Below, one piece after another: positions 7,481 to 43,680 of a stretch of DNA of 64,000 nt. The translations under genes were made by a program, and so were the position numbers. The DNA lies in the NCBI GenBank assembly GCA_034440635.1, contig JAOTON010000386.1, forward strand, positions 1,839,001 to 1,903,000, read 5' to 3'. A model generated the notes under the pieces. That model searched no databases and was not told the DNA's origin. It saw only the letters and a list, made by a program, of their open reading frames with translations. Within the stretch, counting starts at the first letter, position 1. The number at the start of each line of letters is the position of its first letter. The stretch is from Lepas anatifera (lineage: Eukaryota > Arthropoda > Thecostraca > Lepadidae).

Positions 7481-9090
7481 CTTTTCCGCACATTGACGGG
7501 GGGGCGGATATCCGCCCCCTCGGGTTTTTCGGAGATGTAATAAAACCACTGCGCATACCGCCGCCGTACTTGGTATGCCTTTACACTGGTCATTTTTACA
7601 ACTTTAGGCGAAATCTTAAGGTTGAGTCATCTCAGGTTAGGTCACCAGTGCAGGTAAAGTGACCTCATCCCAAACAAAGCTTAACCCGCGCCCCACCGGG
7701 GTCCGGCGCCACCTTCGCCCCACCGGGGGGCCATCGATGGCCCCCTCTAACTCCGAAAATATGGGCGTTAGCGCAAATCTGCAAAGTGCAATGGAAAGCT
7801 CGCGTGAATTCAGTAAGAAATTACTTCGCATGTTTTAGTGCTCAGGTCAATGGTTTGACCTCCAGAGGTCAAATTAGGTCAAGATCGGCTATTTTCACTC
7901 AAATATGCAATGATTAAGCAAACTGGGCATAACTCTTATGTCATTAGAGCTATTGAGGCCTGGTAAAGTACATTTGATAGCAAATTGCCAGTACTTTTTC
8001 CGCTATGTGGAACGTAAAGACCTCCCGCCAGTGGTTTGACCGCCAGAGGTCACCTCGTGACCTAATATGACCTGAGGTCACGAAAGGTCAAAAAGTGACC
8101 TTGCCGTATATCAAATGAAAGCCAGTGACAAGACAAACACGATGGTGTTTGTTTCACCGCTCTAGCTCAATTAGGTCAAAAGTTATTGTCCAAATACTGT
8201 TTTTGACCTCTGGTGACCTTGGATGACCTTGGAAAAGTCAAAGGGCAAATATGACCCCTGGGATCCGTGAAAGGGTGTCCAAAAACGTTGTTCTGAGCAG
8301 TCTGAGTATTTGCAATCATTTTTGTGGCTTTTATATCATGAAATAGCTTTTCCCCATGCTTTGTCAATGGGAGAGGTCGCCTCGTGACCTGACCTCAGTG
8401 CACGAAATCGAAAAATCCCGGATATACACCTTGTAGACCCTGGAGGGGTCATGAAGTGTAGGAAGTTTCAAATCGATCGACTTTGAAATGTAGCTCTTAC
8501 AGAGCTCTAAAGGTGAAGTGAGGTGACCTTGGTTGACCTCGTCTGGTGACCTGACCTTGGGTGACCCGGGGTAAAAAATTTCAGGGATGATGGGAAAATG
8601 ATGCAGTGAGAGGTAGAGCCCTCAACCGCGGTGCTGCGCCTCGTCGTTTTTCTGCTATCCCGGAAAAACCTTAGGGGGGGCCATCGATGGCCCCCGGTGG
8701 GGCGAGGGTTAAGATAGCATGAGTCAGAACAGGGTGAACAGGTCCGATTGAAACCCTTATCACATAATGGGCCCACCGAGTTCTGCAAAATACATTCCGG
8801 TGTTTGTGATATCGATTGCCTAAGGTTAGATATGAGCCATTGAAATACATGGGAAAATGGTTTATGCTGAATAACTTAGCAATGGATGGTGGTAAAACAT
8901 TTATTTTAACGGCATTAGGTTCGCCTCATCCTTGCTGTTTGAATAATATGCATTTGGCCTAATTTGATTTTAACTTGACCTCAGGTCAGGTAAATCCTAT
9001 ATTTGCCCTGATATGACCTCGGAAGGTCATATTATGGGCTTACTGCGAGGATGCCAATGGTCAAGATCGTTTTGCTCTATCTTTGCTAGG
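7481..9090 (+). mobile_element. Family B TTAA-MITE, interrupted and 3' truncated
   Basis: Starts with ACATTGACGGGGGGG and a palindrome GGGGGCGGATATCCGCCCCC, then a GGGTTTTTCGGAG stem. The internal sequence runs to 7680, is interrupted by another MITE (7685-8708), and resumes at 8709 with TTAAGATAGCATGAGTCAG. Uninterrupted relatives at 20.8 and 28.5 kb read straight through TTTAAGATAGCAT. The copy ends near 9090, before the right terminus. No coding capacity. The palindrome core is GATATC here rather than GGTACC. Confidence 0.8.
7681..8712 (-). mobile_element. Family A TTAA-MITE, 1,024 bp, with TTAA duplication
   Basis: The element spans 7685-8708, flanked by TTAA at 7681-7684 and 8709-8712. 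Both ends carry CCCACC/GGTGGG next to the palindrome GGGGGCCATCGATGGCCCCC. The hexamer appears twice at the 7.7-kb end (7692 and 7719) and once at the other (8696). The interior has many TGACCT/AGGTCA hexamers. It lies inside a family B copy, with the target site preserved as a single TTAA in paralogues, so the TTAA duplication is directly demonstrated. TTAA targeting is the hallmark of the piggyBac superfamily; no transposase is encoded. A nearly identical inverted copy is at 42.2-43.2 kb. Confidence 0.9.
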
Positions 9091-9164
9091 CAGGGGTGGA
9101 AAAATCTGCCAACTCGCCAACCAGTGATTGCGACAGACCTTGGCTTCTGAAAATATGCAGTGTA

Positions 9165-9754
9165 TCAGAGAACGTCTACGAAATCGGAACTTCGGCAGCC
9201 GCGGAGAAAACCAGATATGATCACTTCAACGTTTTCGAAGTCGCTGGAGGTTTTCAGCAGCAATCGTTCGGCCTGATACGCTGGGCAGTCGACCCAGCAT
9301 TGGTTGCGGTCGAACTTATAGCGCGGGAGTGGCCCTAGGATCACTACCCTCTTGGCAGCGCCCTTCACTGCGTTAAGGACGTTCCTGAAATCGGTCTCAA
9401 GGGAGGCGAGGTCGGGCGTCCATCGACCAGCTGATGTCCTCGGATAGAAGTCGTTCCCCGTCATCCAAATGATTATGGATCCAAGGGCGCAGGCGAAAGC
9501 TGAGGATGCTGCACGCCAGTGTTCCATCTCCTTGGTTATGCAGTGAGTGAGCTTTGCCCACGAGTGCCCGCCTCTTGAGCGGTGGACGATGATATCCGGG
9601 GGCGTACCTCGAAGCGGTGCTCAAACCAGGCACCCGTGGAATCCCCGATGAAAAGGTGGGCTTCGGCTCCATCCATCTCGGCGCTGGGGATGGCCCTGAG
9701 TTCATCGACATCTTCGTCGGAGATGATGAGGACCTCTGGATCTGGAGAAGCCAT
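9165..9754 (-). pseudogene. SGNH-hydrolase-like domain, frameshifted
   Basis: From an ATG at 9754 the frame gives an acidic leader, then HLFIGDSTGAWFEHRF: GDS is the nucleophile block of SGNH/GDSL esterases. One frameshift near 9598 separates this from SRGGHSW (block II glycine), and then IIIWMTGNDFYP (GxND block) and VVILGPLPRY follow in a single frame to 9165. The C-terminal D-x-x-H block is not visible, so the catalytic histidine is missing. A pyrimidine tract ending in CTGTTTCAG lies just upstream of the ATG and could be a splice acceptor. It sits 280 bp downstream of a gypsy integrase on the same strand, in the position some elements use for a third gene. Whether it belongs to the element is inference. 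Confidence 0.6.
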
Positions 9755-9759
9755 CGTCA

Positions 9760-10030
9760 ACTGAAACAGATATTGCAGGGGTAAATGAAACAGCACCTAG
9801 TTGCGGGTAACCATACTGGACGGATACCCATCGCAGTGACCGAGGTTCTTCAAGCAAAACAAAACTGATCATATTTCACTTCACGCTCTGAACTTTCAAT
9901 CAAAATATCAGACAGCCCCGGATTGGACGGTTCTGTCCCATCGCAGTGAACAATTGGGCCACCTGAAAAAAACGGAAGGACAGGAACTAACGACAAGACA
10001 CGGGGACATTGTATCGCACAGTAAGTTTGT
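9760..10030. other. Gap between integrase and SGNH remnant
   Basis: A 3' LTR would be expected here, but I see no match to the LTR at 15.1-15.55 kb and no clear polypurine tract. The minus strand carries two acceptor-like tracts (TTTTTTTCAG and CTGTTTCAG). Confidence 0.4.
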
Positions 10031-10035
10031 CAGTA

Positions 10036-11556
10036 TCATGCATGGCATTGAGAAAAGTGGGTCACAATATCACCAAATCGTGGCGGGGGTCGCCTATTCC
10101 GGCGAAGCTTTTGTTTCTGGACATTTTCGATATTTTCGCCCGACCCGTCGTAACGGACCTGATTGTCTTCGGTCGCAGCAGGGGTTAACGCAGCTGGCTC
10201 AGCCCCCGAAATGGGCGAGTCATCAGGCCTCAAAACCGAGTCACATTTACTGACTTGCCAAGAGAAGTGTGGAGGCCCTTCGATCTTCCACAACCGATTG
10301 AAGTGAACCACCTTGAGAACCCCTTCTCCGATCTTCTGGATTCTGTAAGTGACATCAGACAACCTTTTTACTACTCGATATGGCCCTTCCCATGGCGACA
10401 TAAATTTTGGGCTTAGTCCTTTTTTACGTTTTGGGTTGTAGAGCCAGACCTGGTCTTCGGGCTGCAAAAGCTTTGTTGATGCCTTGGCGTCTTTTCTCAG
10501 TTTCATGGCCTGTGACGACAGCTGGAGATTGGTCCGAACGTGCGAGTGTGTCTCGCTCAACTTCTGTCGTAGATCTCTGACATAGTGTGTGGTGGTCTCG
10601 TGGATTTCGTTGTCTCCTGGCGGTCTCTCTATCATCAGATCTATGGGAAGCCTTAGGTCTCTTCCCATCATAAGTTGTGCCGGCGTATACTGTGTCGTTT
10701 CATGCTCTGCCGACCGGTATGCCATCAAAAGAAAGGGTAAGTGCTTGTCCCAATCTTCTTGCTTACCCTTACAGCGCTTAGCGAGCTCTTGCCCTAGTGT
10801 TCGGTTGAATCGCTCAACCATTCCATCCGACTCTGGGTGCATAGGCGTTGTTCTTGTTTTTTCAATACCGAGGATCTGACAACATTCCCTAAATACACAG
10901 CTCTCGAAATTTCGTCCCTGATCCGAGTGGAGACGTAGGGGTACGCCAAAGCGTGAGAAGAACTGCTCCACCAGGACCTGAGCGACTGTGGTCGCCTCTT
11001 GATTGGGTATAGCATATGCTTCTGGCCATTTGGTGAAATAGTCCATAGCGACTAGAATGTATCGATTTCCACTACTGGACACTGGGAACGGCCCGACGAT
11101 GTCTATTGCCACCCGTTCCATTGGTGCGCCGGCATTGTGGATCTGCAAAGGTCCTTGTGGTGCTCTTGGTGGTCCCTTCTTTGCTGCACAGACCTCACAT
11201 GTTCTGCACCATTCGGTCACATCTCGCCGCATGCCTACCCAATAAAACCGCTCTCGAAGACGGCAAAGAGTCTTCTTGGTTCCAAAGTGTCCACTTGATA
11301 CAGAACCGTGGCTTTCTGCCATGATTTCCTCACGTTTGCTTCGGGGAACCACTACTAACCACTTTAATCTTTGGCCATTGGGTGATTCCCACGCCCTCTG
11401 AAGCAATCTTCCGGACAGACGCAGCATGTCCCATTGTGCCCAGTACCGTTTGGTGACACCGCTTGAGGAAGCAACATCTTCCCACTGCGGTCGTTCACTT
11501 CCCTGCTCCATGAAGACTATCAAGGGAGCAAGGTCTGGATCAGTTCTCTGAGCCAA
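10036..11556 (-). CDS. gypsy integrase (pol C-terminal part)
   Basis: Inserts the cDNA into the host genome. The 506-residue frame shows an HHCC zinc domain (H83, H90, C117/C120 with C123 near), then the catalytic core: D152 in AIDIVGP, D212 in HSDQG and E248 in GMVERF, giving D,D35E spacing. The C-terminal part carries KVVHFNRLW and a basic RRNRRPPPRFGD tail typical of Ty3/gypsy pol ends. No in-frame ATG begins it: the frame opens at about 11556 by a shift from the RNase H frame, so it is part of pol and not a separate gene. All catalytic residues seen are intact. Confidence 0.9.
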   Translation of the reverse strand: MAQRTDPDLAPLIVFMEQGSERPQWEDVASSSGVTKRYWAQWDMLRLSGRLLQRAWESPNGQRLKWLVVVPRSKREEIMAESHGSVSSGHFGTKKTLCRLRERFYWVGMRRDVTEWCRTCEVCAAKKGPPRAPQGPLQIHNAGAPMERVAIDIVGPFPVSSSGNRYILVAMDYFTKWPEAYAIPNQEATTVAQVLVEQFFSRFGVPLRLHSDQGRNFESCVFRECCQILGIEKTRTTPMHPESDGMVERFNRTLGQELAKRCKGKQEDWDKHLPFLLMAYRSAEHETTQYTPAQLMMGRDLRLPIDLMIERPPGDNEIHETTTHYVRDLRQKLSETHSHVRTNLQLSSQAMKLRKDAKASTKLLQPEDQVWLYNPKRKKGLSPKFMSPWEGPYRVVKRLSDVTYRIQKIGEGVLKVVHFNRLWKIEGPPHFSWQVSKCDSVLRPDDSPISGAEPAALTPAATEDNQVRYDGSGENIENVQKQKLRRNRRPPPRFGDIVTHFSQCHA

Positions 11557-12848
11557 GTCAACCTCCCCCGTGGACCGGCCCCGCTGCCTGTGGTATCAGG
11601 AGCGGCAGTATCCACAGGCAGGGACTCGACCAGGGATGTAGTGACTCGACATTGCCCACCAGGAATGCTTTCTTTCCGTTGGCAGTACTTACACCCATCC
11701 TGGCACGGCCGGCGACTCAAACCATCCGCGTTGGCGTGTTTCTTGCCAGGCCTATGACATACTTTGAAGTGGTATTGCCCTAGCCTAGCCAACCATCTGG
11801 CTAACTGTCCTTCTGGATCTTTCAGGCTTTGTAGCCAACGCAGTGCGGAGTGGTCGGTCCTAATCGTGAATGGGGTGCCATAGAGGTAATGGTGAAAATG
11901 TCTGACAGACTCTACGATGGCCAGGAGTTCTCTTCGTGTCGTACAGTAGTTTTTCTCTGGTGAAGTTAGAGAGCGGCTGTAGTATGTTACAACATGCTCA
12001 GACCCGTTATGTGATTGAGAAAGTACTGCCCCGACTCCACATCCGCTTGCATCTGTGTCTAGAATAAACTCCTTTGCTGGGTCAGGATACGTCAGTACCG
12101 GCGTACTGGTTAAGGCGTCCTTCAGTTGATCGAAGGATTCAGAACAAGACTCATCCCATGAGAAGGACACTTTGTCCTTCGTAAGGGCATGTAAAGGCGC
12201 AGCTATCGAGGCGAAATCCTTGACGAACCGCCTGTAATAGGTACACAGGCCCAAGAAGCTACGTAGCTCCTTCTTGGTCGAGGGAACCGGCCAGTCTCTT
12301 ACTGCTTTTGTTTTCATCGGATCAGTCATGACGCCATCAGCAGAAACAATGTGTCCGAGGTAACAGACTTCCTGCCGGAAGAGATTACACTTCTTGGGAT
12401 TCAATTTCAAGTTTGCGGCGCGCATGCGCTGGAGCACCTCTCGCAAACGGTTCAGTTCGTCATCGAATGTCTTGCCGAAGACAATGACATCATCTAGATA
12501 GACAAGCAGTGTCCTCCAGTGAAGCCCTGAAAGCACAGCTTCCATAAGTCTTTCAAAAGTCGCTGGGGCGTTACACAGGCCGAATGGCATGACTCGCCAC
12601 TGCCAGAGGCCGCTGCTGCTCGAGAAGGCCGTTTTCATCCTATCCTGCTTGGAGACTGAGATTTGATGATACCCAGCCTTGAGGTCAAGTGTTGAAAACC
12701 AGTGTGCTCCAGATAGTGCGTCCAAGGTGTCATCAATCCTTGGTAGGGGGTAAGAATCCTTCACCGTTGAATCATTCAACAGACGATAGTCTACGCAGCA
12801 ACGTAGTGACCCATCCTTCTTTTTACGAGAACCAAGGGGGACGACCAT
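11520..12848 (-). CDS. gypsy reverse transcriptase and RNase H (pol middle part)
   Basis: Copies element RNA into DNA. In the 442-residue frame the first catalytic aspartate is in STLDLKAGY (about residue 55) and the YLDD box is at about 117-120. RNase H begins around 254 with ILDTDASGCGVG, followed by RRELLAIVE and TDHSALRWL, so its acidic residues are present. The frame is entered by a shift from the protease frame: a run of five T at 12820-12824 (A on the coding strand) lies where six would keep the conserved VKKKDGS motif in frame. That is a one-base loss or a sequencing error. It ends 36 bases inside the integrase frame. Confidence 0.9.
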   Translation of the reverse strand: MVVPLGSRKKKDGSLRCCVDYRLLNDSTVKDSYPLPRIDDTLDALSGAHWFSTLDLKAGYHQISVSKQDRMKTAFSSSSGLWQWRVMPFGLCNAPATFERLMEAVLSGLHWRTLLVYLDDVIVFGKTFDDELNRLREVLQRMRAANLKLNPKKCNLFRQEVCYLGHIVSADGVMTDPMKTKAVRDWPVPSTKKELRSFLGLCTYYRRFVKDFASIAAPLHALTKDKVSFSWDESCSESFDQLKDALTSTPVLTYPDPAKEFILDTDASGCGVGAVLSQSHNGSEHVVTYYSRSLTSPEKNYCTTRRELLAIVESVRHFHHYLYGTPFTIRTDHSALRWLQSLKDPEGQLARWLARLGQYHFKVCHRPGKKHANADGLSRRPCQDGCKYCQRKESIPGGQCRVTTSLVESLPVDTAAPDTTGSGAGPRGRLTWLRELIQTLLP

Positions 12849-13984
12849 GGACTGTTCGATCGCTCTATCAGCCCCTGATCACTCATGTCCCTGATCATTG
12901 TTTCTGCCTCTTTACGTTTGGAAATCGGGATTCGCCGTGGTGGGAGCTTGATCGGTTGGGCTTGTCCTGTCTCGATGCGATGCTGCACCAAATTTGTTTT
13001 GCCTAGGTCATGATCCCCTGACGAAAACGTATCCGCAAAGTCTCCAAGGAGTTTTCTGACCCCTCTGCACTGGTCTTCTGTAAGACCCTGAGAGGACCGC
13101 TCCATCAGATCCTCGAGGTGTTCCGGAAGCTGCCCATCTCCCAAACTGCTTTGCATGGTTTGCGATGAGGTCATTACCTCGACTGGCTCACATTGACCCA
13201 CATACGTACCGGCCTGCAATCTGATCGGTACTTTGGACAGGTTTGCTACCAACACTGGAATGGAAGAGTTGGCTGTGTCCACGATCGTGCGACCGACCAC
13301 AACGCCTGAGCGCCTCACATGGCCTGATTCCACAAGTCCTGGATTATCGAAACCCCGTCCCTCAGTACTACAGCATAGCAATGTCTCCGATTCAGGTCTC
13401 AGCGTCGTCGTCTCGAAAACTCTGACCCTTAGTGTCTTAGACGGGGGCTGGTCCACGTCACCCAAGGTAATTGGTACCGTGATTCCTCTGATTTTCAGTT
13501 CTTTAGCAGGAATATCTAATTTACACTCATTGAGCTGTAGATAATCAAGACCAAGGATGCAGGGTTCATCCAACTCATCTGCCACATAGACTTGAAGATT
13601 CGTGCTTATGCCATGAACAGTCAGCTCGATCTCTTTCGGACCCCAGAGAGTTGTGCACCGGCCAGTGACATCACAAAGGCCTTCCTCAATCCTTGGTAGG
13701 GATGATCCGTCTAGCAGATCACGTCGAAGGAGTGTTCGGTTTGATCCTGTATCCACAATAAGAGGCCATTTCCTCCCGTTTATGGTTCCTTCCACCTTTA
13801 GACTTTTAACCTCCTTTGAGCACCGCGAAGTCGCAACATGCCGGGACTTTTCTGGCACATAGACCGACTGTTGTCCCACACCGTCGGTCTCTACTCGTTT
13901 CCCGCGCTTGTTCTCTCGCTTGAGGTCGATGATCTCTGCGGACAGAATCGCTTGATGTGGCCAGATCGTCCGCAGAGCCAGCAC
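12791..13984 (-). CDS. gypsy protease and start of reverse transcriptase
   Basis: The 397-residue frame contains LIVDTGSNRTLL, the aspartic protease DTG motif, at about residue 75-86, and LGLDYLQ further on. Its C-terminal third is the lead-in to reverse transcriptase (PPRRIPISKRKEAE, then SPWSSPLVLVK). It terminates about 30 bases after the A-run frameshift, where conserved RT sequence continues in the next frame. It overlaps the gag frame by about 94 bases in a different frame, which would allow the usual ribosomal frameshift between gag and pol. The annotated start is simply the first available codon; true translation probably comes from gag. Confidence 0.85.
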   Translation of the reverse strand: MLALRTIWPHQAILSAEIIDLKRENKRGKRVETDGVGQQSVYVPEKSRHVATSRCSKEVKSLKVEGTINGRKWPLIVDTGSNRTLLRRDLLDGSSLPRIEEGLCDVTGRCTTLWGPKEIELTVHGISTNLQVYVADELDEPCILGLDYLQLNECKLDIPAKELKIRGITVPITLGDVDQPPSKTLRVRVFETTTLRPESETLLCCSTEGRGFDNPGLVESGHVRRSGVVVGRTIVDTANSSIPVLVANLSKVPIRLQAGTYVGQCEPVEVMTSSQTMQSSLGDGQLPEHLEDLMERSSQGLTEDQCRGVRKLLGDFADTFSSGDHDLGKTNLVQHRIETGQAQPIKLPPRRIPISKRKEAETMIRDMSDQGLIERSNSPWSSPLVLVKRRMGHYVAA

Positions 13985-15042
13985 CCGTCATCCCTTACCG
14001 AGTTTCGTGGCTGCACACGAGAACTCTTTTTCGGGAAATTGTTGCCTGACATCAGCATCTCTAAAGACTTGAGCCGTCTCTGTATGTCTTCTAGAACGTT
14101 GTATTCAGATCGATTCTGCTCATCCCTGATTGTGTTCTGTGGTGCGGAGTGACGTGCAGCGTACCCAGACGCAACATGCGTGCGTGGAGAAGGAGCACCG
14201 GCAGATTTCCGAATGGCTTCGATTTCAATTGCCCCCGCCAAAGCCTCCTGAAGAGTGGCGGGGCGCGACTGCCGAACCATAATCTGTAGGTCCACATCAC
14301 TCAGTGCCTCCAGAAACTGATCACATGCCAGAGAATCCCTCAGCTCTTGTGAGGCTGGAGGGAAAGCCTGAGAAGCAAGCTTCTCGACATCCCGGGCTAA
14401 TGCTGGCAGTGGCTCCCCGGCAGCTCGCAGCCTCCTACGGAACTGTGTCCGGAACCACGTATCCTGTCGACCACAGCCAAACCGCTGTTCCAGTGCGTTC
14501 AACAGACGAGCATAGTCCCGTTTATCCTCCAATGGAAGATGGGAAAATACCTCCAAAGCAGGTCCTCTCAAACAAGCAACCAGCTCACCCAGACAATCTG
14601 CATCGTTCCATGCGTGCATGGACGCAACGGACTCAAACTGTGCCTGGAACGAGAGCCATGGAACAGAGCCGTCATAATCTTGAGGTTTCGCAAAATGCCG
14701 CCCCGCCGCAGATGCACCGGAAGCCGAAGCAGTGGAGAGACTTCCTACAGGAAGAGGAGGCTGAGGCACGTTTTGAGAGCCGAGATCAACGTTTGTGCAA
14801 GCCAGGGATTTGGAGATGCCTTCCACCTGGTTTGTCAGTGCTGCATGGTTAGCAGCTTGCTCCGTCAGTGCCCTACTCATAGCATCCAATGTTTTAAGGA
14901 TCTGTTCATCCGAAGCAGAATAGTCTGAAACAGACGCTGCAACAGCTCCCTCCGCGTTGGAAACATGCTTCGAATTCTCCGATAGGGGTAGTTCACCTGG
15001 GTCATCCTCCGTTACCCTTACCTTCGAACGAGTTCCAAACAT
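13891..15042 (-). CDS. gypsy Gag polyprotein
   Basis: Structural protein that packages element RNA. I choose the ATG at 15042 (MFGTRSKVRV), about 30 bases downstream of the primer binding site. Longer upstream codons lie inside the LTR and are unlikely. The 383-residue product has a capsid-like core (RLLNALEQRFG, EKLASQAFP) and a CCHC zinc knuckle CWLCGRSGHIKRFC near the C-terminus. It overlaps the protease frame by 94 bases. No internal stop, so this frame is intact. Confidence 0.85.
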   Translation of the reverse strand: MFGTRSKVRVTEDDPGELPLSENSKHVSNAEGAVAASVSDYSASDEQILKTLDAMSRALTEQAANHAALTNQVEGISKSLACTNVDLGSQNVPQPPLPVGSLSTASASGASAAGRHFAKPQDYDGSVPWLSFQAQFESVASMHAWNDADCLGELVACLRGPALEVFSHLPLEDKRDYARLLNALEQRFGCGRQDTWFRTQFRRRLRAAGEPLPALARDVEKLASQAFPPASQELRDSLACDQFLEALSDVDLQIMVRQSRPATLQEALAGAIEIEAIRKSAGAPSPRTHVASGYAARHSAPQNTIRDEQNRSEYNVLEDIQRRLKSLEMLMSGNNFPKKSSRVQPRNSVRDDGCWLCGRSGHIKRFCPQRSSTSSERTSAGNE

Positions 15043-15071
15043 TATGACGTGACCGCAGGTGGGTTTGGAAA

Positions 15072-15087
15072 TAACTTCTGACACCAA
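15072..15087 (-). other. Primer binding site
   Basis: Minus strand TGGTGTCAGAAGT starts one base after the LTR end (ACATAACA). TGG matches a tRNA 3' CCA end. I do not assign the tRNA. Confidence 0.65.
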
Positions 15088-15088
15088 T

Positions 15089-15555
15089 GTTATGTTTGCT
15101 CCTACTGGCCACGCAGTAGAAGTAGAAGAAATATACCAAGTAGGACCCAAGTAACGTATAATTCCAGTAGAACACAACGTATAAGAGAAATTGGCCACTA
15201 TATTGGTTTTGGCGTCAATCAGTAATCAGGGATACACACTAACACCGAAAACAGTGAGAAACCACGGTGGGCAGGACTGGCCAATGCAATGCTCGGAGAT
15301 CCCAGGGCAATGCACAACAGTGTCCCAGGGCACAGCGCTCGGAGAGCCCAAGGCGGCGTGCGTACCCTCCCCCGTCTGGCACTCGGAGATCCCAAGGCAG
15401 CCAGCCAGAGAGAGAGAGAAGGGAGGACTTACCCCGAGTAGTCTCAGCCGACTACTGCCCACCCGTGGCTGCGCCCGACCTGAGGTCACCACGCTTGGTG
15501 CGCATGTCACGTGACAAAGACAGTGGCACCATCTAGCGCCGATACGGTCATTACA
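15089..15555 (-). repeat. gypsy 5' long terminal repeat, 467 bp
   Basis: On the minus strand it runs TGTAATGACCGT to ACATAACA, so it has TGT/ACA ends. Its downstream edge is fixed by the primer binding site, its upstream edge by the TGTAATG end next to a tRNA-like repeat. No second copy was found, so the boundaries rest on end structure only. Confidence 0.7.
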
Positions 15556-15689: not shown

Positions 15690-15898
15690 TTTAAGTGTTG
15701 GAGATGGGTCACTTGCTCTGGCCTGGTGACCTGACGTGCGATAATAGAAACTTTAAATTTGGAGACAAGCAGCGCAATCAATGAAAAATAAGGTGTGCCA
15801 AGGACATGCGGCCGCGCTTCGCGGTGCGGTTCTCTAGGACCATCGGAAAACTCATAAAGGGTGTCCAAACACCACCATTCCTCTCGGACGAGGATTAA
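15690..15898 (+). mobile_element. TTAA-MITE terminal fragment (family C2)
   Basis: Contains GGTGACCTGACGT, AATAAGGTGTGCCAAGG, a GC hairpin (GCGGCCGCGCTTCGCGGTGC), GGGTGTCCAAACACC and TCGGACGAGGATTAA. This is the same order as the terminus at 43.54-43.68 kb, including a TCGGA hexamer-like motif before the terminal TTAA at 15895-15898. Confidence 0.6.
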
Positions 15899-20609: not shown

Positions 20610-21457
20610 TTAACACGCGGATTGACGGGGGGCGGGTACCCGCCCCCTCGGGTTTTTTCGGAGATAGCAGAAAAACGGCGGCGCGTAGCGCTGCCGTACT
20701 TGGCATGCCTTTTCCCTCATCATTTTTACAACTTTTGTGAAAATTTTAAGGTTAGGTCATCTCAGGTCAGGTCACCAGTACAGGTCAAGTGACCCGACCT
20801 CAAAAAAAGTTTAAGATAGCATAAGTCGGAGCAGGGTGAACTTATCCGATTGAAACTCATATAACATAATGGCCCCACCGAGTTCTCTAAAATATGTTCC
20901 GCTGTTTTTGATATCAATGACCTAAGGTCAGGTACGAGGCATGACCTCTCCATTGGAAAATTCATGGCAAAAATGTTTTTTTACGGAATAATTCAGTAAC
21001 GGATGATGATAGAGCATTTATTTTAGCTGCATTAGACTCGCCTGGGCTTTGCAGTTCTAATGATATGCATTTTATATAATTTGACCCTGACCTGACCTCA
21101 GGTCAGGTCAAATCCTTGATTTGACCTAGCAAGGTCAAATTATATATCATTCGATTCGGCTTACTGAGAGGGTTCATACAGTTCAAGTTGTTTTGCTTTA
21201 TCTTTACTTGTTCAGATGTAATGGCTGAAAAACTGAATTTACATGTTATCCCTATGACGGCATGTTTTGACCTCTCGTGACCTTAAATGTGACCTGACAA
21301 AAATGGTTTAAATGTTTTCGATGGAGAAGTGGATGGGCAGCCCAACGCCGTTTACCGTTTTTCGCTACCTACCGTGGTTCTCGAGATCTTAGGGGGCGGG
21401 TACCCGCTCCCCCGTCAATGCGAAGGTGGCTCAGACCCCCGTCAATGCGCGTGTTAA
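20610..21457 (+). mobile_element. Family B TTAA-MITE, complete, 840 bp
   Basis: TTAA at 20610-20613 and 21454-21457. Left end has ATTGAC (20621) then GGGGGGCGGGTACCCGCCCC and the hairpin GGTTTTTTCGG...CAGAAAAACGG. The right end has the palindrome GGGGGCGGGTACCCGC and GTCAAT twice (21414 and 21441, 27 bp apart). The interior has dense AGGTCA/TGACCT, including TGACCTGACC-TCA-GGTCAGGTCA near 21090. No coding capacity. Confidence 0.85.
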
Positions 21458-24213: not shown

Positions 24214-24880
24214 AGCTAACACCCGCACTGGAGAGGGGTCTGGCACTAACGCGCACTGGAGGGGGGGTTGGTAGACCCCTTGAGATCTTCGAAACTAAGA
24301 GGCTTAGAAAAATGTTGGTTGGGGGTGGGTGGTCTACATCATACTCAATTTTCATTGACCTAGGTCTGTATCTTCAAGGTCAAACGAGGTTATAAATGTT
24401 GAATCTTGGCTGTGCTGGGGACCTATTAGAAAATGCCGTAATTGTGCGGAAAAGGTCGGAAATATGTTAAAAGCGAACTAGGGTCATCTAGGGAGGGTCG
24501 CAACGAATCTTACGTATCACTTTGGGGTCAAGATCATTCAAGGCCTCTGACCTATGACGCCACAATATGATATATTCCCTATAATGTATGTACACTGTAA
24601 CTAGCACTACAGCACTATAGCAACCGTTCAGTGGGAAATGAGGATTAACCTTTACACACAACCTTTGGCCTTGACCTTTACTTTGAGTTACCTCTATGAC
24701 GTCATAACATAATTTACGTCAGACTGGGTAGTGCCATTTGACGGGAAGTTCTGGGGCCAATGACCTGGGAAGTGCTGGTATGACTGACTTGCGATCTTTG
24801 ACCTTGAGCTTGACCTTCATGTGAGGTGACTTTGACACATCATCGCCTGTGTATGGCGTTATAACGTCACCACTCGGTCT
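24214..24880 (-). mobile_element. TTAA-type MITE variant (family H), degenerate
   Basis: The left edge is a two-hexamer terminus in reverse: CTAACACCCGC-ACTGGA, then CTAACGCGC-ACTGGA, with hexamers at 24227 and 24255 (28 bp apart), followed by a G-run and CCTTGAGATCTTCGAAAC, which matches the family B CTAAGATCTCGAGAACC block. The interior has AGGTCA/TGACCT hexamers, for example TTGACCTTGAGCTTGACC. The terminal TTAA is degraded and the other end is not identified. Confidence 0.55.
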
Positions 24881-25118
24881 CCAATGTAAGAAAACTGGTC
24901 CGACCCCGCAATTGTGGCGATCTCAAAATGTAGATCTGACTGAAAGATTATAAGTCAAAGTATCACTTTTTGCTTATATCATAGACTAATTTGGAAATTA
25001 TTTTACAAATCGACGTGCCTTTGAACTGTCTCAAATATGGTCGAGCATTGTTCTTCGGTTACGAGCGGTTCTCAGGCCACCTCGGAAAAATAGGTAGGGG
25101 CTTCCGAGGGTTCCCTCT

Positions 25119-28283: not shown

Positions 28284-29123
28284 TTAACTTGTGCATTGAC
28301 GGGGGGCGGGTACCCGCCCCCTCAGGTTTTTCGGAGACAGCATAAAAACGGCAGCCTGCAGCGTCGCTGTACTTGACATACCTTTTCCCTGATAACTTTT
28401 ACAACTTAAGTCAAAATTTTGAGGTCAGGTCATCTCAGGTCAGGTCACCAGTACAGGTCAAATGACCTGACCTAAAAACATTTAAGATAACATGAGTCAG
28501 AACAGGGTAAACTTATCCAACTAAAAATTATGTCACACAATGGGCCCACAGAGTTATTTAAAATTTGTTCCAATATTTTTTATATCGATAACCGAAAATC
28601 AGGTACGAGCCATGACCTCTCCGCTGGAAATACATGGGAAAATGATTTTTATTGAATAACTTAGCAATGAATAGAGATGGAACGTTTATTTTTACTTCAT
28701 TAGGTTGGTCTTGTCTTTGCAGTTCTATTGATATGCATTTTGACATAATTTGACCTTAACCAGACCTCAGGTCAGGTCAAATGACATATTTGGCCTGGTT
28801 TGGCCGATCGAGGTCATATTATATATCATTCGATTTTGCTTGCTGCGAGGATTTAAATGGTCTTAAATTGTTTTGCTCTTTCTTTACTTGTTTAGATGTA
28901 ATGACCAAAACCTTCATTTACGTGTTATCCCTATGATGGCATGTGTTGACCTCTCGTGACCTTAAAGGTGACCTGAAAAAAATTGTTTAAATATTTTCGA
29001 GAGAGAATTGGGTGGGCTACCTAAAACTGCTTACGGTTTTTCGTTATCTAGCGTGGTTCTCGAGATCTTAGGAGGGCGGCGCCCCCGTCAAAGCGATGAT
29101 GGCCCAGTCAATGCACATATTAA
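28284..29123 (+). mobile_element. Family B TTAA-MITE, complete, 832 bp
   Basis: TTAA at 28284-28287 and 29120-29123. Left: GCATTGACGGGGGGCGGG and the GGTACC-core palindrome; right: GTCAAA (29087) and GTCAAT (29107), here 20 bp apart. The interior reads uninterrupted across TTTAAGATAACATGAG, the site where the family A element entered the 7.5-kb copy. Confidence 0.85.
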
Positions 29124-29162: not shown

Positions 29163-30293
29163 TTAACCCTATTTGCGGGGGCTAATATTGCCCCCTTCAG
29201 GTTTTTCGAGAATATCTCCGAAACGGTTTGCGATAGAACTTTGAAACTTCCTGACTTTTCCTAAACTAGACGGCAGGTTTTCTGAATTTTCAAGATTATA
29301 TATTTACCGGGGGAGCTATGGCTGGGTTTTTGGGGAGGTTCTATCCAAAACAAGTATTATCGTATGCGATGGGTTTTTGTAAAGGAAGCCGTCTCTGCTG
29401 ATCCTGATACCAGTTATTTGGTTTTATTATATCATTTTTTATATGAGATGGTAGTGCATTCACAATTGTACTATTTGTATTCATCAGGGGCGGTTACAGC
29501 AGTTCAAAATGGGGAATGTTATAAGAAGGACTAAACGTTAGTAGTGAGAAGACTGCTTACAGCCGTGTGCGAATACAATTGGGTATATGAAAATTAAATA
29601 GTTATAACCAATTCTAATTACCAGAGGCGTGTCCAGTCACCACATTTTCAAATGTATATTCCCAGCCAGTATCACCGCCGCGACTAATATCGTTGTATAT
29701 TGAAATGTGTTTCCAATACCCACCCCCACGAGAGTCTGATCCGCCTATGTCACCCCTTCCAGAGCTGCCTGGGAGGGTAAAATTATCAGAAATTAAATTT
29801 CACTAGTCGAGGGACTAATATACTCATGCATACCATTGCATATTGTTGGTATGTATTTTACCCCACTGTTTTACCTTACTGATCCGCCCCTGATGAGTTT
29901 TTACTTTTTCTATTTATTTATGTGTAAGATGCCAAGCAGTATATGACGGCTCTAATCCACGTAACAAAACTTTTAGTTGTTATATTTCCTCTAGTCCTGG
30001 TCCTGAACTGCCATTGAATTTCAATTTTTGCGTAACTGAGTATATGAAAATTTTGGGTATTATTTGTAAATCTGAACTAGTTTTGTGAAAATCGTACAAC
30101 AGAGAAAGGGTTATGGAAAATCTAAAAATACACAAAATTGTATATTTTGCACGACCTTCTCCTAAAAATAAAAATTTTGAATTTTTTTTCAAAATAAGTT
30201 TGAGCGAGGAATCTATGCACTTTGAATTTTCAAAATCGGCCGGTTAGATTACGATCTTAGGGGCAATATCCCCTGCGAAGTGGCCTAAGTTAA
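29163..30293. mobile_element. TTAA-bounded MITE (family F), about 1.12 kb
   Basis: TTAA at 29163-29166 and 30290-30293. Left CCCTATTTGCGGGGGC-TAATATT-GCCCCC; right GGGGCAATATCCCC-TGCGAAGTGGC. The left palindrome is followed by GGTTTTTCGAGAAT, as in families A and B. It begins 40 bp after the family B copy ends. Contains a probable nested hAT-like element. Confidence 0.65.
29485..29892. mobile_element. Probable hAT-like element nested in family F
   Basis: Ends CAGGGGCGG and GATCCGCCCCTG form a short inverted pair. I see no clear 8-bp duplication, so the call is tentative. Confidence 0.35.
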
Positions 30294-31696: not shown

Positions 31697-32746
31697 CTAT
31701 TGCAAATCGAGGTATGCATCATCGTTTGGACGGTCAGGCTCATCTAAGCTTATTGTAGCTGGCTGTAACCACTCCAGCAAACCGCTGTTGAAGGTTACCT
31801 CTCCTAATCTAAGAACAGAATCAAAACCATTCCCCGCCAGTATTTTGAAGCCTAGAGAACACTGCAGCAAGTACAGCAGTTTTTGATGCTCTGGAATCGC
31901 CATCAAATCCAGAAATCCCCACATTCCCTTCCAGTAAATTACCACAGCCAGATTAGAGGCCAATGCTAGGAAGTCCTCCCTAACTTGCTGGACGCGGGAA
32001 CTATTCTTATCACTTGCAACCCAAGACAGCTTCACTGGTAACAGGATGCATCCTAGTAGACATAACGCTCCGATGAGAAGCGCAAGGGGTGCTGCTTTCC
32101 AGCCTAGAGGCATCATTGCGAGGTTTGCCAGACTCCACTGTCCACGCCAGAGAAGAATCACGAGGCTGTTCACTCCCAGTAGCGATACGACAGCGTCGCC
32201 AATCGCTGCCAAAGGTCGCTGGTCTGTGTCAGTACCCAGCAGTGTCTGTGGCGACCTCTCCGACACGGGCAGAAGCGACAGCTTCACTTGAGGCACTGGC
32301 GGCATGTTGGTTGATGTCGGCAGAGCCCGCATCATCACCAAAGCCACAGCCGCAGACACTGCGCTCACCACGTAGCTCCACACGCGGACTCCGATGGCGG
32401 CGTCTAGCAGAAGCCACCCTCCGCGCCAAAACAACACATCAACCACCGCACACACTGCGCTGTACACCAGATTCAAGCACGGTCTGGTGGAGAGCTCTTC
32501 AACTACCGCCTTCCTGAGGTACACCAGTGGGTAGCCAACCAGCGCCGCTAGCGCAAATGAAACCACTGCGGAGAGAAGCTGGCGTGCGGGCAGCAGCATC
32601 AAGTCCAGCAGACCCCAGATCCCCCGCCACACGGCCACGTGGGCCGGGCCCAGCGCTGTCAGCCACGTCAGTGTTGTCAGCACCGCAGCTGATCCGGGCC
32701 GTGATGTCATCGCACTGACGTCTGCTGAACTGCTAATCTCGGTCAT
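31697..32746 (-). CDS. Fuseless-like multi-pass membrane protein
   Basis: Intact 349-residue single-exon frame. It has about eight hydrophobic segments and a fourfold motif, W-R/K-G-x-W-x-L-x-(D/N): at W40 (VWRGIWGLLDL), W107 (FWRGGWLLLD), W200 (LWRGQWSLANL) and W272 (YWKGMWGFLDL). The spacings, 67 and 72 within each pair, suggest a duplicated four-segment unit. This pattern fits the Fuseless family of eight-pass proteins; Drosophila Fuseless acts at presynaptic terminals in calcium-channel function. Family membership is from motif recognition; the role here is inferred. Both loops and C-terminus are hydrophilic, and no signal peptide is evident. The start at 32746 sits in ACACCATGA, a good context, but identical contexts recur upstream in a 53-bp array. 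Lack of introns could mean a retrocopy, though no poly-A tail is seen. Confidence 0.65.
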   Translation of the reverse strand: MTEISSSADVSAMTSRPGSAAVLTTLTWLTALGPAHVAVWRGIWGLLDLMLLPARQLLSAVVSFALAALVGYPLVYLRKAVVEELSTRPCLNLVYSAVCAVVDVLFWRGGWLLLDAAIGVRVWSYVVSAVSAAVALVMMRALPTSTNMPPVPQVKLSLLPVSERSPQTLLGTDTDQRPLAAIGDAVVSLLGVNSLVILLWRGQWSLANLAMMPLGWKAAPLALLIGALCLLGCILLPVKLSWVASDKNSSRVQQVREDFLALASNLAVVIYWKGMWGFLDLMAIPEHQKLLYLLQCSLGFKILAGNGFDSVLRLGEVTFNSGLLEWLQPATISLDEPDRPNDDAYLDLQ

Positions 32747-33217
32747 GGTGTTACGCTGGTCACTGCACTGACGTCTGCTGAACTGCTAATCTTGGTCATG
32801 GTGTCACGCTGGTCACTGCACTGACGTCTGCTGAACTGTTGATCTTGGTCATGGTGTTACGCTGGTCACTGCACTGACGTCTGCTGAACTGCTAATCTCG
32901 GTCATGGTGTTTCGCTGGTCACTGCACTGACGTCTGCTGAACTGCTAATCTCGGTCATGGTGTTACGCTGGTCACTGCACTGACGTCTGCTGAACTGCTA
33001 ATCTCGGTCATGGTGTTACGCTGGTTACTGCACTGACGTCTGCTGAACTGTTGATCTTGGTCATGGTGTTACGCTGGTCACTGCACTGACGTCTGCTGAA
33101 CTGCTAATCTCGGTCATGGTGTTACGCTGGTCACTGCACTGACGTCTGCTGAACTGCTAATCTCGGTCATGGTGTTACGCTGGTCACTGCACTGACGTCT
33201 GCTGAACTGCTGATCTT
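32704..33217 (-). repeat. 53-bp tandem array over the gene start
   Basis: About ten near-identical 53-bp units. On the minus strand each reads ATGACCGAGATTAGC, TTCAGCAGACGTCAGTGCAG, then TGACCAGCGTAACACC. ATGs occur at 33170, 33117, 33064, 33011, 32958, 32905, 32852, 32799 and 32746, exactly 53 bp apart. The last one opens the Fuseless-like gene, whose first 12 codons are repeat sequence. Units differ by few bases (GAG/AAG; GTAACA/GTGACA/GAAACA). Each also holds a GACGTCA-type CRE-like core. Confidence 0.95.
32799..33170 (-). promoter_or_regulatory. Chain of eight overlapping upstream reading frames
   Basis: Each of the eight upstream ATGs opens an 18-codon frame (MTEISSSADVSAVTSVTP or close variants) that stops at a TGA overlapping the next ATG as ATGA. 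All eight are open. The overlap follows from a unit length of 53 (two more than a multiple of three), so it may be a passive result of duplication. If the array is in the 5' UTR, it would strongly affect initiation at 32746. Transcription through it is not shown. Confidence 0.5.
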
Positions 33218-33219
33218 GA

Positions 33220-33545
33220 AAGTTATTTTATGTCAGGGCCGCCTTTTTTAGCTGAACGCCACGATTGTCTCAGTATTTATGGTGGTCGCAGATTTTCACT
33301 TGATTGCACGCATTGCGTATTTTTGCACGGTCTCCAAACTTAAGAGCTTGAAACTGAGAGCGCCCCGACAGAGACCCCGGTCTGAACAAGAGGTTTGGGT
33401 AGCTGCCCCGGCTCGCACGGCAGCTGCTCGTCGGCTGCGCTATGGCGCTGTTTGCTCAGGTGCCAATGCTATCAAACTCATACAGCTGCACTTGTGCACT
33501 TGTGAAAGCGAGGCTTTATGGTGGGCGTGACACAGCCACGGGGCT
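33220..33545. other. Upstream flank of the 53-bp array
   Basis: Moderately GC-rich with short open frames on the plus strand. No TATA box or CpG cluster stands out. Could hold the gene's promoter. Confidence 0.25.
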
Positions 33546-38858: not shown

Positions 38859-38859
38859 G

Positions 38860-39082: not shown

Positions 39083-39957
39083 TTAACCTGCGCCCTGCTG
39101 GGCCTCCTGAGCCACCTTCGCCCTGCTGGGGGGAGGGGTGTTTGAAACCCCCTCGAACTCGCCCCCTATGCGGGATAGCGAAAAAACTCGAACGATGGTG
39201 GATAGCTCATACAAATTCATGACGAAACTATAGGAAAATTTTTGGATCAGGTCAATATTGAGGTCATGGCAGGTCAAAGAAGTTGGCATTGTGAGCTCTA
39301 GAAGGAAAGAAGCTTTTGGGTTCTAGCATCTGACAGAGTTGAGTTAGAATCATTTTGTAAGCACCATTCGCTTCCTCTCGTCATGGCGAATCGAATGATG
39401 TATAATGTGACCATACTAGATCAAAACACAAAAATGGCCTGACCTCAGGTCAGGTCAAGGTCACCTGTTGATCTCAAATAGTCAATATGCATATCAATCG
39501 ACTTGCAACAGCAATCCTAACGCAATGGTATGAAAATAAAAGCTATATCATCATTGCATGCAGAGTTATTGACCCAAGTCTGAAAACTGCTTAAGTAGCT
39601 CCAGATGACCTCTCAGAGGTCTCAGGCCAGCAATTGCAACATGAGCCTGGAAAGGGACCGATCCACTACTTCAATTTGGATAATATAAAGGCATTATCAT
39701 TTGTATCTACGCAAATACAGCCCAATATCTGTTTTCCATGTATTTCCAATGGAGAGGTCATGGTCCGTACTTGGCCTTAGGTCATCGATATGAAAAATCT
39801 CGGAACATATTTTGTAGAACTCGGTGGGTGGGAATATTATGTGTTGCATGTTTCAATCCGATAGATTCACCTATTTCTTACTTATGCCACCTTAAATTTT
39901 TTTTGGAAGTGAGGTCACTTGACCTGTACTGGTGATCTGACCTGAGATGACCCAAAC
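39083..39957 (-). mobile_element. TTAA-MITE variant (family C1)
   Basis: TTAA at 39083. Two-hexamer terminus with CCTGCT at 39094 and 39122 (28 bp apart) around GAGCCACCTTCGC, the reverse of GCGAAGGTGGCTC in family B. Then a near-palindrome GGGGTGTTTGAAACCCCC. The interior has TGACCTGAGATGA and GGTCAGGTCAAGGTCACC. The far end stops at CAAACTTAAAACCAGAGCTGC, without a terminus; family C2 at 43.54 kb stops at an equivalent junction. Confidence 0.7.
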
Positions 39958-39959
39958 TT

Positions 39960-41440
39960 AAAACCAGAGCTGCAAAAAATCTCAAATCTGTCGGGCACTT
40001 TCGAAAAAACCTCCAAATCTGTCGGGTGGTTAGGATAGGACTATTAAAATTGTCTAAAACCCATTCAATTGGTAAAATGTTCCTACTCATTTTCCACATT
40101 CTTAATAGAAAATACTAAAATTAGCATAAAAAACTTCTAGTTTGGCACCAATGGATATCATTATCCTTATTTTTGTGCTCTGATCCTTATATGTGTGATA
40201 TCCTTATTTTTCGTGCTCTGAAGCCGCCTATGGCAAATCTAGGTGGAATGACACAAGTCTATTAATTTTCAAAACTCTAGAACTGAGACTGTTCTTCGGG
40301 TTTTCAATTATCAGACGCGCTCAGGAAATTAAGGTTATCGGCAGAAACCTATAACAAACTGAATACCGAACCACCAATTCTCATTTTCTGGAGTCACCAT
40401 TGGTAAAGAAAATTTATTATTGGATGTAATTTGAGATTTGTGGACGTACAGCATACAAATAGTGTGCGTCAAAGTCAGCTCGACTGGGTCTTGAATGAGA
40501 CTCAGTCTTGAATTCAGATGATTTAGGTCACAGGTGGAAATATACAATAACATGAGAAGCAGCCCCCTTTTTCAGTCCTCTGCAGCCGCTATTGACGAAA
40601 AATGCTGCATTAGAATGAGAATAAGTGATATTTTGTTATTATGTTACATAGTCCAGCCCAGAATACTTAAAAATATAGTTTGCAATGGAAGAAAGCTGAC
40701 CTGGTTCCCATACCATGCGGTTACTTATGCCAGCTTCTGCAGATTTTCATGATTTCAGTTTTTTGGAGGTGGGAGGGGGTAATTTGGAAGGAACCCCCAA
40801 AATTTATATATGGATTTTGCTCTGATGGCCAGACGAACAAGATTGGAGGGGTACTTTTTTATATTCGAAGAAGTGTTTTTTTAAGGATCATGGCTACTTG
40901 TAGTTGAATGCAAACATGTAATATTAGCTTTCCATGACTTTTAAATGCATGTTTACATGAACAATGCTAAATTTTGAAGCTGTTGGCTATTTCAAAGTTT
41001 TTCACGCATTGCAGTGCTCATTTCCATGAGGGTAGGTGGTTTAGGATCTGAAGTTAATGAGGCTAATAAATAACCTTAAGTCAGTTAGATATTAAACATC
41101 AAATAAATATCATGTTTCCAAGGAAGTTAAGAGTAAAAGGAATGAGTAAAGGTTGCACTAGGCTGTGTTTTTGTTATATCTTTGTCCCCTTGACATAGAT
41201 CATAGGCATATTTAGGTAAGTGAATAAAATGAAATAGGAGAAATAGTTTGGTACTTAAAACTCAAATTAAAGTGGAAAGGTGAAGAGTTTTGTTTCTTTG
41301 GCATCTACAAATCCACTGATGAAGGTATGCAACCTTTGTGGTTAATTCTGGATAAACAGGCATTGGATTTAAAAGAAGACGGGAGGGAAAATCAAATGTT
41401 TTAGTCTAATTTGACCAGTTTGCTGGTAAAAATCATTTTT
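39960..41440. other. AT-rich spacer, no gene recognised
   Basis: Short AATCTGTCGGGCAC repeat sequence at 39980-40030 recurs at 43.49 kb. The remainder is AT-rich without supportable features. Confidence 0.4.
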
Positions 41441-41873: not shown

Positions 41874-42170
41874 CTTGCAACGTTTTGCCTCCACCACACC
41901 ACGGGATTCTAGGGCCTTGGCCTCCGCCATATCCACAAGGCAACACACCAAACCGCAGGGCTGCTTTTCTTCAAACCAAACATACCTTTTACACCGGCTT
42001 TGCCGCAAGGGCGCTGTTCAAACAGCGCCCTTACGGCAGCGTTGAGCGTACTTCCAAACGAAGGAAACTAAGGAAAAAAACTGTTTTGCCTGTCGCCTTT
42101 ACCTTTACGGCGGCCTGTCGGGCCAAGCTGTCGCGTGCTATGGAATACAAATCGGGCCCGACAGGCCAGT
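41874..42170. other. GC-rich segment with two strong hairpins
   Basis: About 42001-42038: GCCGCAAGGGCGCTGTT pairs with ACAGCGCCCTTACGGC, one mismatch, very short loop. 42113-42170: GGCCTGTCGGGCC pairs with GGGCCCGACAGGCC across about 30 bases. On the minus strand ATGGCGGAGGCCAAGG (41925-41940) is a good start context reading about 19 codons to a weak donor. Could be a promoter-proximal region for the finger exon or a decayed MITE. Confidence 0.35.
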
Positions 42171-42208
42171 GAAGGAATTTTTCCAGCAGAGGATTTTCTG
42201 GGTGACGT

Positions 42209-43241
42209 TTAACCCTCGCCCCACCGGGGGGGCCATCGATGGCCCCCTAAGGTTTTTCCGGGATAGCAGAAAAACGACGAGGCGCAGCACCGCGGTTGAG
42301 GGCTCTACCTCTCACTGCATCATTTTCCCATCATCCCTGAAAATTTTTATCCCAGGTCATCCAAGGTCAGGTCACCAGACGAGGTCAACCAAGGTCACCT
42401 CACTCCACCTTTAGAGGTCTGTAAGAGCTACATTTCAAGGTTGATCGATTTGAAACTTCCTACACTTCATGAACTCTCCAGGGTCTATAAGGTGTATATC
42501 CGGGATTTTTCGATTTCGTGCCCTGAGGTCAGGTCACGAGGCGACCTCTCCCATTGGAAAAGCATGGGGAAAAGCTAATTCATGATATAAAAGCCACAAA
42601 AATGATTGCAAATACTCAGACTGCTCAGAACAACGTTTTTGGACACCCTTTCACGGATCCCAGGGGTTATATTTGCCCTTTGACTTTTCCAAGGTCATCC
42701 AAGGTCACCAGGGGTCAAAAACAGTATTTTGACAATAACTTTTGACCTAATTGGGCTAGAGCGGTGAAACAAACACCATCGTGTTTGTCTTGTCACTGGC
42801 TTTCATTTGATATACGGCAAGGTCACTTTTTGACCTTTCGTGACCTCAGGTCATATTAGGTCACGAGGTGACCTCTGGCGGTCAAACCACTGGCGGAGGT
42901 CTTTACGTTCCACATAGCGGAAAAATTACTGGCAATTTGCTATCAAATGTACTTTACCAGGCCTCAATAGCTCTAATGACATAAGAGTTATGCCCAGTTT
43001 GCTTAATCATTGCATATTTGAGTGAAAATAGCCGATCTTGACCTAATTTGACCTCTGGAGGTCAAACCATTGACCTGAGCACTAAAACATGCGAAGTAAT
43101 TTCTTACTGAATTCACGCGAGCTTTCTATTGCACTTTGCAGATTTGCGCTAACGCCCATATTTTCGGAGTTAGAGGGGGGCCATCGATGGCCCCCCGGTG
43201 GGGCGAAGGTGGCACCGGACCCCCGGTGGGGCGCGGGTTAA
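42209..43241 (+). mobile_element. Family A TTAA-MITE, second copy, 1,025 bp
   Basis: Element 42213-43237 with TTAA at 42209-42212 and 43238-43241. It is the reverse complement of 7685-8708 with few differences over its full length. Single CCCACC at the left end; GGTGGG twice at the right. Same palindrome GGGGGCCATCGATGGCCCCC. No coding capacity. Confidence 0.9.
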
Positions 43242-43244
43242 AAG

Positions 43245-43537
43245 GCCCTCTGTGCATAAGGCCCTCTATTCAAAGGTCCCTCGATTCATAAGTCCCTCGA
43301 TTTTCCATCGGTTCTTGCCGCACACTGGCTTGATATGGGAGAGGTGCAAATTCATGAAAAACTTGTTGAGTGAAAGAGGTGACAATTCTAATATTGAGTT
43401 TTTTAGAACAAAAAATATTTTCTGTTTCCTTTCAATATTTTTTTCTCACAGATTGTAAGATCTGTCGCAGGACCATACCGTGCCCTAAAATCTGTCGGGC
43501 ACTTTATGACCCGAGAGCCCGACTTTTTGCAGCTCTG
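43245..43537. other. Short repeats, no gene
   Basis: 43243-43310 has four GGCCCTCT/GTCCCTCGATT units of about 20 bp. 43455-43537 has two GATCTGTCG / AATCTGTCGGGC units shared with 39.98 kb. Confidence 0.5.
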
Positions 43538-43680
43538 CTTAAAATGTTGAGAAAAGTTGCGAAATGAATCATGAATAAGGTGTGCCAAGTACGGCGGTGC
43601 TTTGCGCCGCCGTTTTTTCGTGACGCCGAAAAAAATCCGAGAGGGGGTGTTCAAACACCCCCCATCGGAGCGAGGGTTAA
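43538..43680 (+). mobile_element. TTAA-MITE terminus (family C2)
   Basis: Only the one-hexamer end remains: GTGTGCCAAGTACGGCGG, a GC hairpin, TTTTTTCGTGACGCCGAAAAAA, GGGGGTGTTCAAACACCCCC, ATCGGA (43664-43669), GCGAGGGTTAA. The last 11 bases are identical to the family A end at 8702-8712. Confidence 0.75.

Follow-up and report, generated by a model that had tools for sequence, protein, structure and literature searches.

Families of piggyBac-type miniature elements in Lepas anatifera share one end scaffold that carries family-specific words

We analyzed a window of 64,000 nucleotides from Lepas anatifera (Thecostraca; NCBI GenBank assembly GCA_034440635.1, contig JAOTON010000386.1, positions 1,839,001 to 1,903,000, forward strand), which contains several families of miniature inverted-repeat transposable elements (MITEs) that end in TTAA. 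An earlier note on this DNA, made from its letters alone, proposed that these families share one end layout in which a hexamer (X) and the core of a palindrome differ from family to family, with X present once on one end (the single-X end) and twice on the other (the double-X end). Our results indicate that these are piggyBac ends, and that X and the palindrome core are very probably words recognized by transposase, as judged from sequence comparison. The copies in the window, with boundaries set by blast within the window, are as follows.

7470..7680, minus strand: left part of copy D, split by A1; X ATTGAC at 7492-7497, palindrome GGGGGCGGATATCCGCCCCC at 7500-7519.
7681..8712, plus strand: copy A1 of MITE family A, with TTAA at either boundary; its left end is the double-X end (CCCACC at 7692 and at 7719; palindrome at 7726-7745) and its right end the single-X end (palindrome at 8676-8695).
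8709..9450, minus strand: copy D continued on the right side of A1, with homology to B over 8709-9087.
15751..15898, minus strand: decayed C2-like single-X end, TTAATCCTCGTCCGAGA, core TTTGGA; missing from the earlier list.
20610..21457, minus strand: MITE family B; one ATTGAC and the core GGTACC at its single-X end (20610), two ATTGAC spaced 27 bp at its double-X end (21457).
24216..25095 (end approximate), plus strand: double-X end of a family H MITE, with X as ACTGGA (24227 and 24255).
28284..29123, minus strand: MITE family B3, 80% identity to B; single X ATTGAC; double end with outer X ATTGAC and inner X TTTGAC, spacing 20 bp (29087, 29107).
29163..29200, plus strand: single-X end of an R-type element, TTAACCCTATTTGCGGGGGCTAATATTGCCCCC.
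39083..39980 (end approximate), plus strand: double-X end of a family C1 MITE, with X as CCTGCT (39094 and 39122).
42209..43241, minus strand: MITE family A, copy A2, 97% identity to A1 and in the opposite orientation.
43538..43680, minus strand: family C2, single-X end with TCCGAT as X and GTTTGAAC as core.
55083..55209, plus strand: decayed B-like double-X end, TTATCACGCGCATTGAT; also missing from the earlier list.

The hexamers that had been named are all in place: GTCAAT at 21414 and 21441, ATCGGA at 43664 and, as complements, GGTGGG at 7692 and 7719, AGCAGG at 39094 and 39122 and TCCAGT at 24227 and 24255. The 11 terminal bases described as identical in A and C2, GCGAGGGTTAA, occur at 8702, 43670 and 42209 (complement), and the palindromes of about 20 bp were found as perfect ones of 20-22 bp at 7500, 7726, 8676, 20628, 28302, 42228 and 43175. 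One backbone with a family-specific X and core is thus common to the families in the window, as had been proposed. Some details needed correction. The 20-bp spacing in B3 holds, and its inner X does not match the outer one, reading TTTGAC instead of ATTGAC. The cores GATATC and AATATT exist, and their owners are the copy at 7492-7519, whose X is ATTGAC, and the end at 29163, respectively. Family H, which had been described as TTAA-flanked, starts with CTAA at 24216. The core of C1 is palindrome-like (GTTTGAAAC) and its body is partly homologous to B; neither for H nor for C1 was a far end found. More generally, parts of C1, C2, D and A are ~71-82% identical to B, yet their end words differ, with the exception of D, which has the X of B.

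TTAA is present at both ends of A1, A2 and B. A1 sits inside the B-like copy D, at a TTAA of D, and homologous B sequence is uninterrupted at this point and has a single TTAA (GTTTAAGATAGC), so that the duplication of TTAA is evident from an empty site. Ten MITE copies whose size was measured were 0.65-1.2 kb long and non-coding. Separately, AGGTCA/TGACCT, a nuclear-receptor half-site word, was 21-fold enriched in the MITE copies (109 occurrences versus 38 in the rest of the window); it was located in the MITE bodies, e.g., at 7840-8560, 20900-21290 and 42340-43080.

To see these ends beyond the window, the genome (1.04 Gb) was searched with the end pattern GCCACCTTCGCN6GGGG. It gave 18,249 + 17,304 = 35,553 matches, a number that counts matches to one end pattern and not individually verified MITEs, whereas the reversed pattern gave 2; a chance origin of the layout is therefore excluded. 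A pattern in which both X were left free at a spacing of 27 had 34,070 matches versus 14. When exact words were required, which leaves out mutated words, double ends were A-A in 12,517 cases, B-B in 7,776, A-B in 0 and B-A in 1. We further inspected 30 loci, fetched as the first in contig order and not as a random sample. A TTAA-anchored double end was present in 27 of them (L003, L012 and L015 had none by the pattern used), and in all 27 the two X were of the same class, judged by eye. The opposite end was located in 20 of the 30 loci; in 20/20 its X class agreed, and its core was of the same type though not always identical. The agreement of X class between the two X copies and between opposite ends, which the earlier note had anticipated, therefore holds in this sample.

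A profile search for the piggyBac transposase domain (PF13843) found at least 120 matches (711 candidates, 116 scored), and 0/14 control genomes had any. A complete autonomous element, P, was found in a lower-scoring class of these (C1623): it is 4,274 bp long, is bounded by a single-X end (TTAACCCGCGC GGGGCT GGGGGG TAAATTTTA CCCCC) and a double-X end, and has an open frame of 689 amino acids. Its product matches DDE_Tnp_1_7 (PF13843, 1.9e-64) and, over the core, the Trichoplusia ni (T. ni) piggyBac transposase 6x67 (phmmer E 3.2e-70), with the catalytic Asp positions aligned by eye. D305, D389 and D488, as well as C636, C639, C662 and C665, are invariant in an alignment of 11 proteins (one truncated), and C670, H673, C680 and C683 nearly so. 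The closest named relative is from the barnacle Amphibalanus amphitrite (51%). Single ends of the P class had GGGGCT as X in 7/7 cases, and double ends had it twice in 4/7, with small changes in the other 3 (L061, L084 and L090); in several of the 20 P-class pieces scanned no end was found.

A protein search with P gave at least 70 matches (437 candidates, 65 scored), diverged relatives included. End pieces of four relatives and double-end pieces of four more were read; identities to P cover the matched pieces only. C417 (46%) has ATTGAC/GGTACC at both ends, with TTTGAC as inner X, and C968 (51%) has the words of MITE family M, with CCGGGT at its single end and CCCGGT/CCTGGT at its double end; in both elements the ends lie on both sides of the transposase match. 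PF13843 transposase sequence is thus located between such ends in P, C417 and C968. Among the other relatives, C61 (62%) has GGCGCT twice and the core of P, C2056 (56%) combines CCCGCT with the core GCAAAATTCGC on one end, its other piece showing none, C978 (41%) has a B3-type double end, and C1705 (34%) has CCTATTTCCG twice and a CAATATCGG core, resembling the window end at 29163. C1395 (35%) has an H-like end, which may belong to a separate H MITE, and no end was found in the piece read for C1392 (55%). The expectation that piggyBac-like elements would carry the same X on their own ends was thus borne out for the words of B/B3 and M.

The flanks of C417 match MITE B (the L005 copy) over 1-196 (88%) and 232-851 (82%), and those of C968 match MITE M (the L016 copy) over 1-367 (88%) and 339-1200 (87%), so each MITE looks like the autonomous element minus its middle. 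At three of the four C417/C968 ends, the inward piece is longer than the MITE and contains no partner end, which makes it unlikely that two separate MITEs flank a gene; the piece read at the double end of C968 extends 518 bp inward only, and its match to MITE M stops after the first 367 bp of the latter. Sequence comparison therefore suggests that the B and M MITEs were derived by internal deletion of piggyBac relatives sharing their words. The earlier note regarded X and core as swapped modules, and such exchange could take place if recombination or gene conversion carried X/core cassettes between MITE backbones; it would fit the bodies of A, B, M and C, which can be aligned (52-66% overall over their full length) despite different words. 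However, mixed A/B double ends number 1 versus 20,293 unmixed (exact words only), and B and M match their own autonomous relatives over most of their length, which indicates that the words came with the backbone. We consider cassette exchange quite improbable; for B and M, internal deletion from diverged autonomous piggyBac lineages explains the words better.

The geometry of the ends was also compared with that of T. ni piggyBac (here and below, statements on published systems refer to the accessible portions of the cited papers). X occupies bp 8-13 of the end, and in the measured single-X ends the center of the palindrome falls at bp 22-27. On the other end the second X is offset 26-28 bp inward (20 bp in the B3 copy of the window) and is followed by the palindrome. 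In T. ni piggyBac, the DDBD contacts terminal inverted repeat (TIR) bp 7-16, a CRD dimer binds the palindrome at bp 17-33 (center ~bp 25), and bp 34-63 of the right end (RE) are nearly identical to bp 7-35 of the left end (LE), i.e., an offset of 27 (PMC7351741). The earlier note knew of no description of its modular reading; the layout itself matches the known asymmetric anatomy of piggyBac ends, in which a core-domain repeat and a CRD palindrome are repeated on one end (PMC7351741, PMC11707139). The palindrome of P has an odd center, with one central base. As to the termini, A, C, M and P begin with CCC, CCT or CTC and B, H and Q with CAC, compared with the piggyBac type 5'-CC...GG-3'. Kolobok-type transposons likewise duplicate TTAA, and the target duplication seen here would suit them, but their termini are 5'-RR...YY-3' (PMC9587614) and the elements with these ends hold PF13843 piggyBac transposase sequence. 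Both the termini and the transposases found rule out Kolobok as the mover, and we regard such an origin as hardly conceivable.

Single ends of A, B, M, C2-type and P were then aligned. Across these five families, 19/60 pairs were identical in X and 34/96 in the core, whereas the other 63 columns had a mean of 0.74. Among neighboring segments, identical pairs were 56/70 in bp 1-7, 40/40 in the G-run, 30/50 in the C-run and 200/246 in the AAAAACGGCGGCGCG stretch; together with the hairpin arm, the segments beside X and the core were 0.60-1.00 identical. With Q added (R was left out), the values were 35/90 for X and 51/145 for the core. Two changes of words were concerted: the palindrome changed symmetrically between B (GGTACC) and copy D (GATATC), and X is altered in both copies of one end of C61 (GGCGCT twice, compared with GGGGCT in P). 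The earlier idea that X and core change together does not hold strictly, since copy D combines the X of B with the core GATATC, and C61 has an altered X with the core of P. Because the two can change separately, they represent two words and not one locked pair.

It is possible that X and the core are merely family labels, i.e., that each MITE family arose from a single master, that its uniform words reflect a founder effect, and that they drifted with no change in transposase preference. One internally deleted master would indeed give uniform words, hexamers within one copy are often one base apart, and X windows are no outliers relative to the MITE body. On the other hand, the variable stretches coincide with the two known piggyBac contact sites while adjoining segments remain conserved across the five families, and both the double change in C61 and the symmetric change from GGTACC to GATATC are as expected for sites under selection. 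We therefore consider labels an unlikely explanation, though a less remote one than cassette exchange, and prefer recognition of X and core by transposase.

Several observations weigh against this preferred reading. The column-shuffle p of 2e-5 for X plus core versus the 63 other columns was obtained with segment borders set by hand after viewing the alignment, and the hairpin loop was equally variable (34/90 identical pairs). An accelerated divergence of X beyond that of the body was not supported, as X windows had 0.36-0.42 identity when four MITE families were aligned over their full length, at the 14th-23rd percentile of body windows; X is as diverged as the weakly constrained body, so we claim no accelerated change, and the conserved part is the backbone around X. 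The two X of a double end agree in class and less often in sequence: X1 and X2 were exactly the same in 14/27 double ends only, and of the 13 that differed, 8 did so by a base that is fixed in the subfamily (ATTGAC/TTTGAC, CCCGGT/CCTGGT). The single-end hexamer was an exact match to X1 in 15 of the 20 copies with an opposite end found among the 30 loci. The ends of the 30 best-scoring PF13843 loci (L031-L060) speak in the same direction: own ends were identified in 17, none with this layout, and were of three kinds (CCCGTTAACGCCCAGGG; CCCRTTAAGTACCA; CCCRRATCTGCCCA), and a scan over 4 kb did not resolve the ends of the remaining 13, the third kind being seen in a few. In addition, the Cys-rich tail of P aligns to piggyBac 6x67 but is not significant alone (phmmer -5.0 bits). 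The C417 transposase match has in-frame stops, and the inner X of this element is of the B3 type (TTTGAC) though its flanks match MITE B, with inner ATTGAC, better; C968 matched P over residues 299-473 and 626-685 only; and C978, C61, C1705 and C2056 were each seen by one end only. Finally, no autonomous partner for A, C, C1 or C2 was found among the transposase-bearing elements whose ends were read. At one of the 30 best-scoring loci (L050:386-389), a B-type MITE end adjoins the TTAA of a different piggyBac element, an insertion at the target duplication of that element.

Taken as a whole, we find it highly probable that these are non-autonomous piggyBac MITEs which kept their words from autonomous parents and whose X and core are read by transposase. 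X would be contacted by the transposase core (DDBD), and the palindrome by a dimer of the C-terminal zinc-binding (CRD) domain. One end carries this unit once, and X occurring twice on the other end, 26-28 bp apart, would leave room for a second transposase dimer; a second dimer on the repeated end was modelled for T. ni piggyBac. The genome holds several related piggyBac lineages (34-62% to the reference P copy over matched pieces) with different words on a common scaffold, and internal deletion would yield a MITE family that keeps the words of its parent and can presumably be mobilized only by a transposase that reads them. The double change of X, the symmetric change of the palindrome and the virtual lack of mixed A/B ends are consistent with recognition by a transposase of each lineage's own. 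The words would presumably be mutually exclusive, and A, C and H probably had similar autonomous parents.

A further and more tentative idea, which we consider rather doubtful, is that one scaffold in this genome carries six or more piggyBac end codes (X and palindrome core) that exclude one another, diversified by escape from MITEs. MITEs with an old code would soak up transposase; by changing its words together with its DDBD and CRD surfaces, an autonomous lineage would escape these parasites, and the escaped lineage might later spawn a new MITE family by internal deletion.

The change of words by a transposase, and the question of which transposase moves a MITE, are hard to study since usually one transposase and one end are at hand. 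Here, one genome contains several word sets beside related transposases and ~20,000 exact-word double ends that record word pairings, which makes the piggyBac recognition code directly testable. Such a system could also supply non-cross-reacting transposon pairs for laboratory use.

Other repeats in the window include a very long near-perfect inverted repeat at 47306-50341, with arms of 814, 306 and 185 nt at 100% and two copies of a 203-amino-acid frame that presumably resembles a piece of a GIY-YIG nuclease; this may be a genuine palindromic Penelope-like pair or an assembly artefact. A long imperfect inverted repeat at 4148-6585 (three blocks, arms of 158, 371 and 173 nt, 87-92%) is possibly another foldback element. 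Frames at 10036-15198 (minus strand) resemble, by eye, a Gypsy-like long terminal repeat retrotransposon with integrase, reverse transcriptase, protease and a gag-like frame with a CCHC knuckle. Tandem arrays are located at 22549-23693 (a 65-bp unit in ~17 copies), 2574-3523 (22 bp), 32600-33322 (53 bp), 58982-60080 (33 bp) and 61321-61897 (163 bp).

The end anatomy and the superfamily are already known, and coral CMITEs, with a shared body and different TIRs, are a partial precedent (PMC2872659). In the open-licence literature, surveyed mostly at title level, we recognized no account of a genome in which a single scaffold bears several end codes. To that extent the novelty lies in a putative multi-word recognition system that uses one scaffold within one genome, in the autonomous relatives of two MITE families and in the genome-wide counts. 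Pokey and its mPok MITEs in Daphnia are likewise a piggyBac family with MITE derivatives in a crustacean, and several end words are not mentioned in the portions of text available (PMC3849761, PMC4912750). The coral CMITEs share with the Lepas elements TTAA MITE families that have a common body, different terminal repeats and a link to piggyBac, one family having the same TIR as AmiPB1; they differ in being ~100 bp long with an internal region of unknown origin, and the available text reports no hexamer-plus-palindrome words or doubled X (PMC2872659). In piggyBat of Myotis lucifugus, the hexamer GCGGGA followed by an imperfect palindrome forms a repeated transposase-binding unit and the ends are asymmetric, but the words are others, and three units lie 44 bp apart on one end while the other end has no palindrome (PMC11707139, PMC13405395). 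Its transposase is also a weaker match to that of P (E 5.5e-26). T. ni piggyBac (LE35/RE63) has other words, whereas in Lepas several word sets coexist in one genome, the sampled copies are mostly short and non-coding, and the palindromes are bordered by G and C runs. Nevertheless, both have the TTAA target, the core-domain repeat (bp 7-16 in T. ni) and the CRD palindrome (bp 17-33), the doubling of the repeat on one end (offset 27) with an insertion in between, and a related transposase core, that of P in Lepas (PMC7351741).

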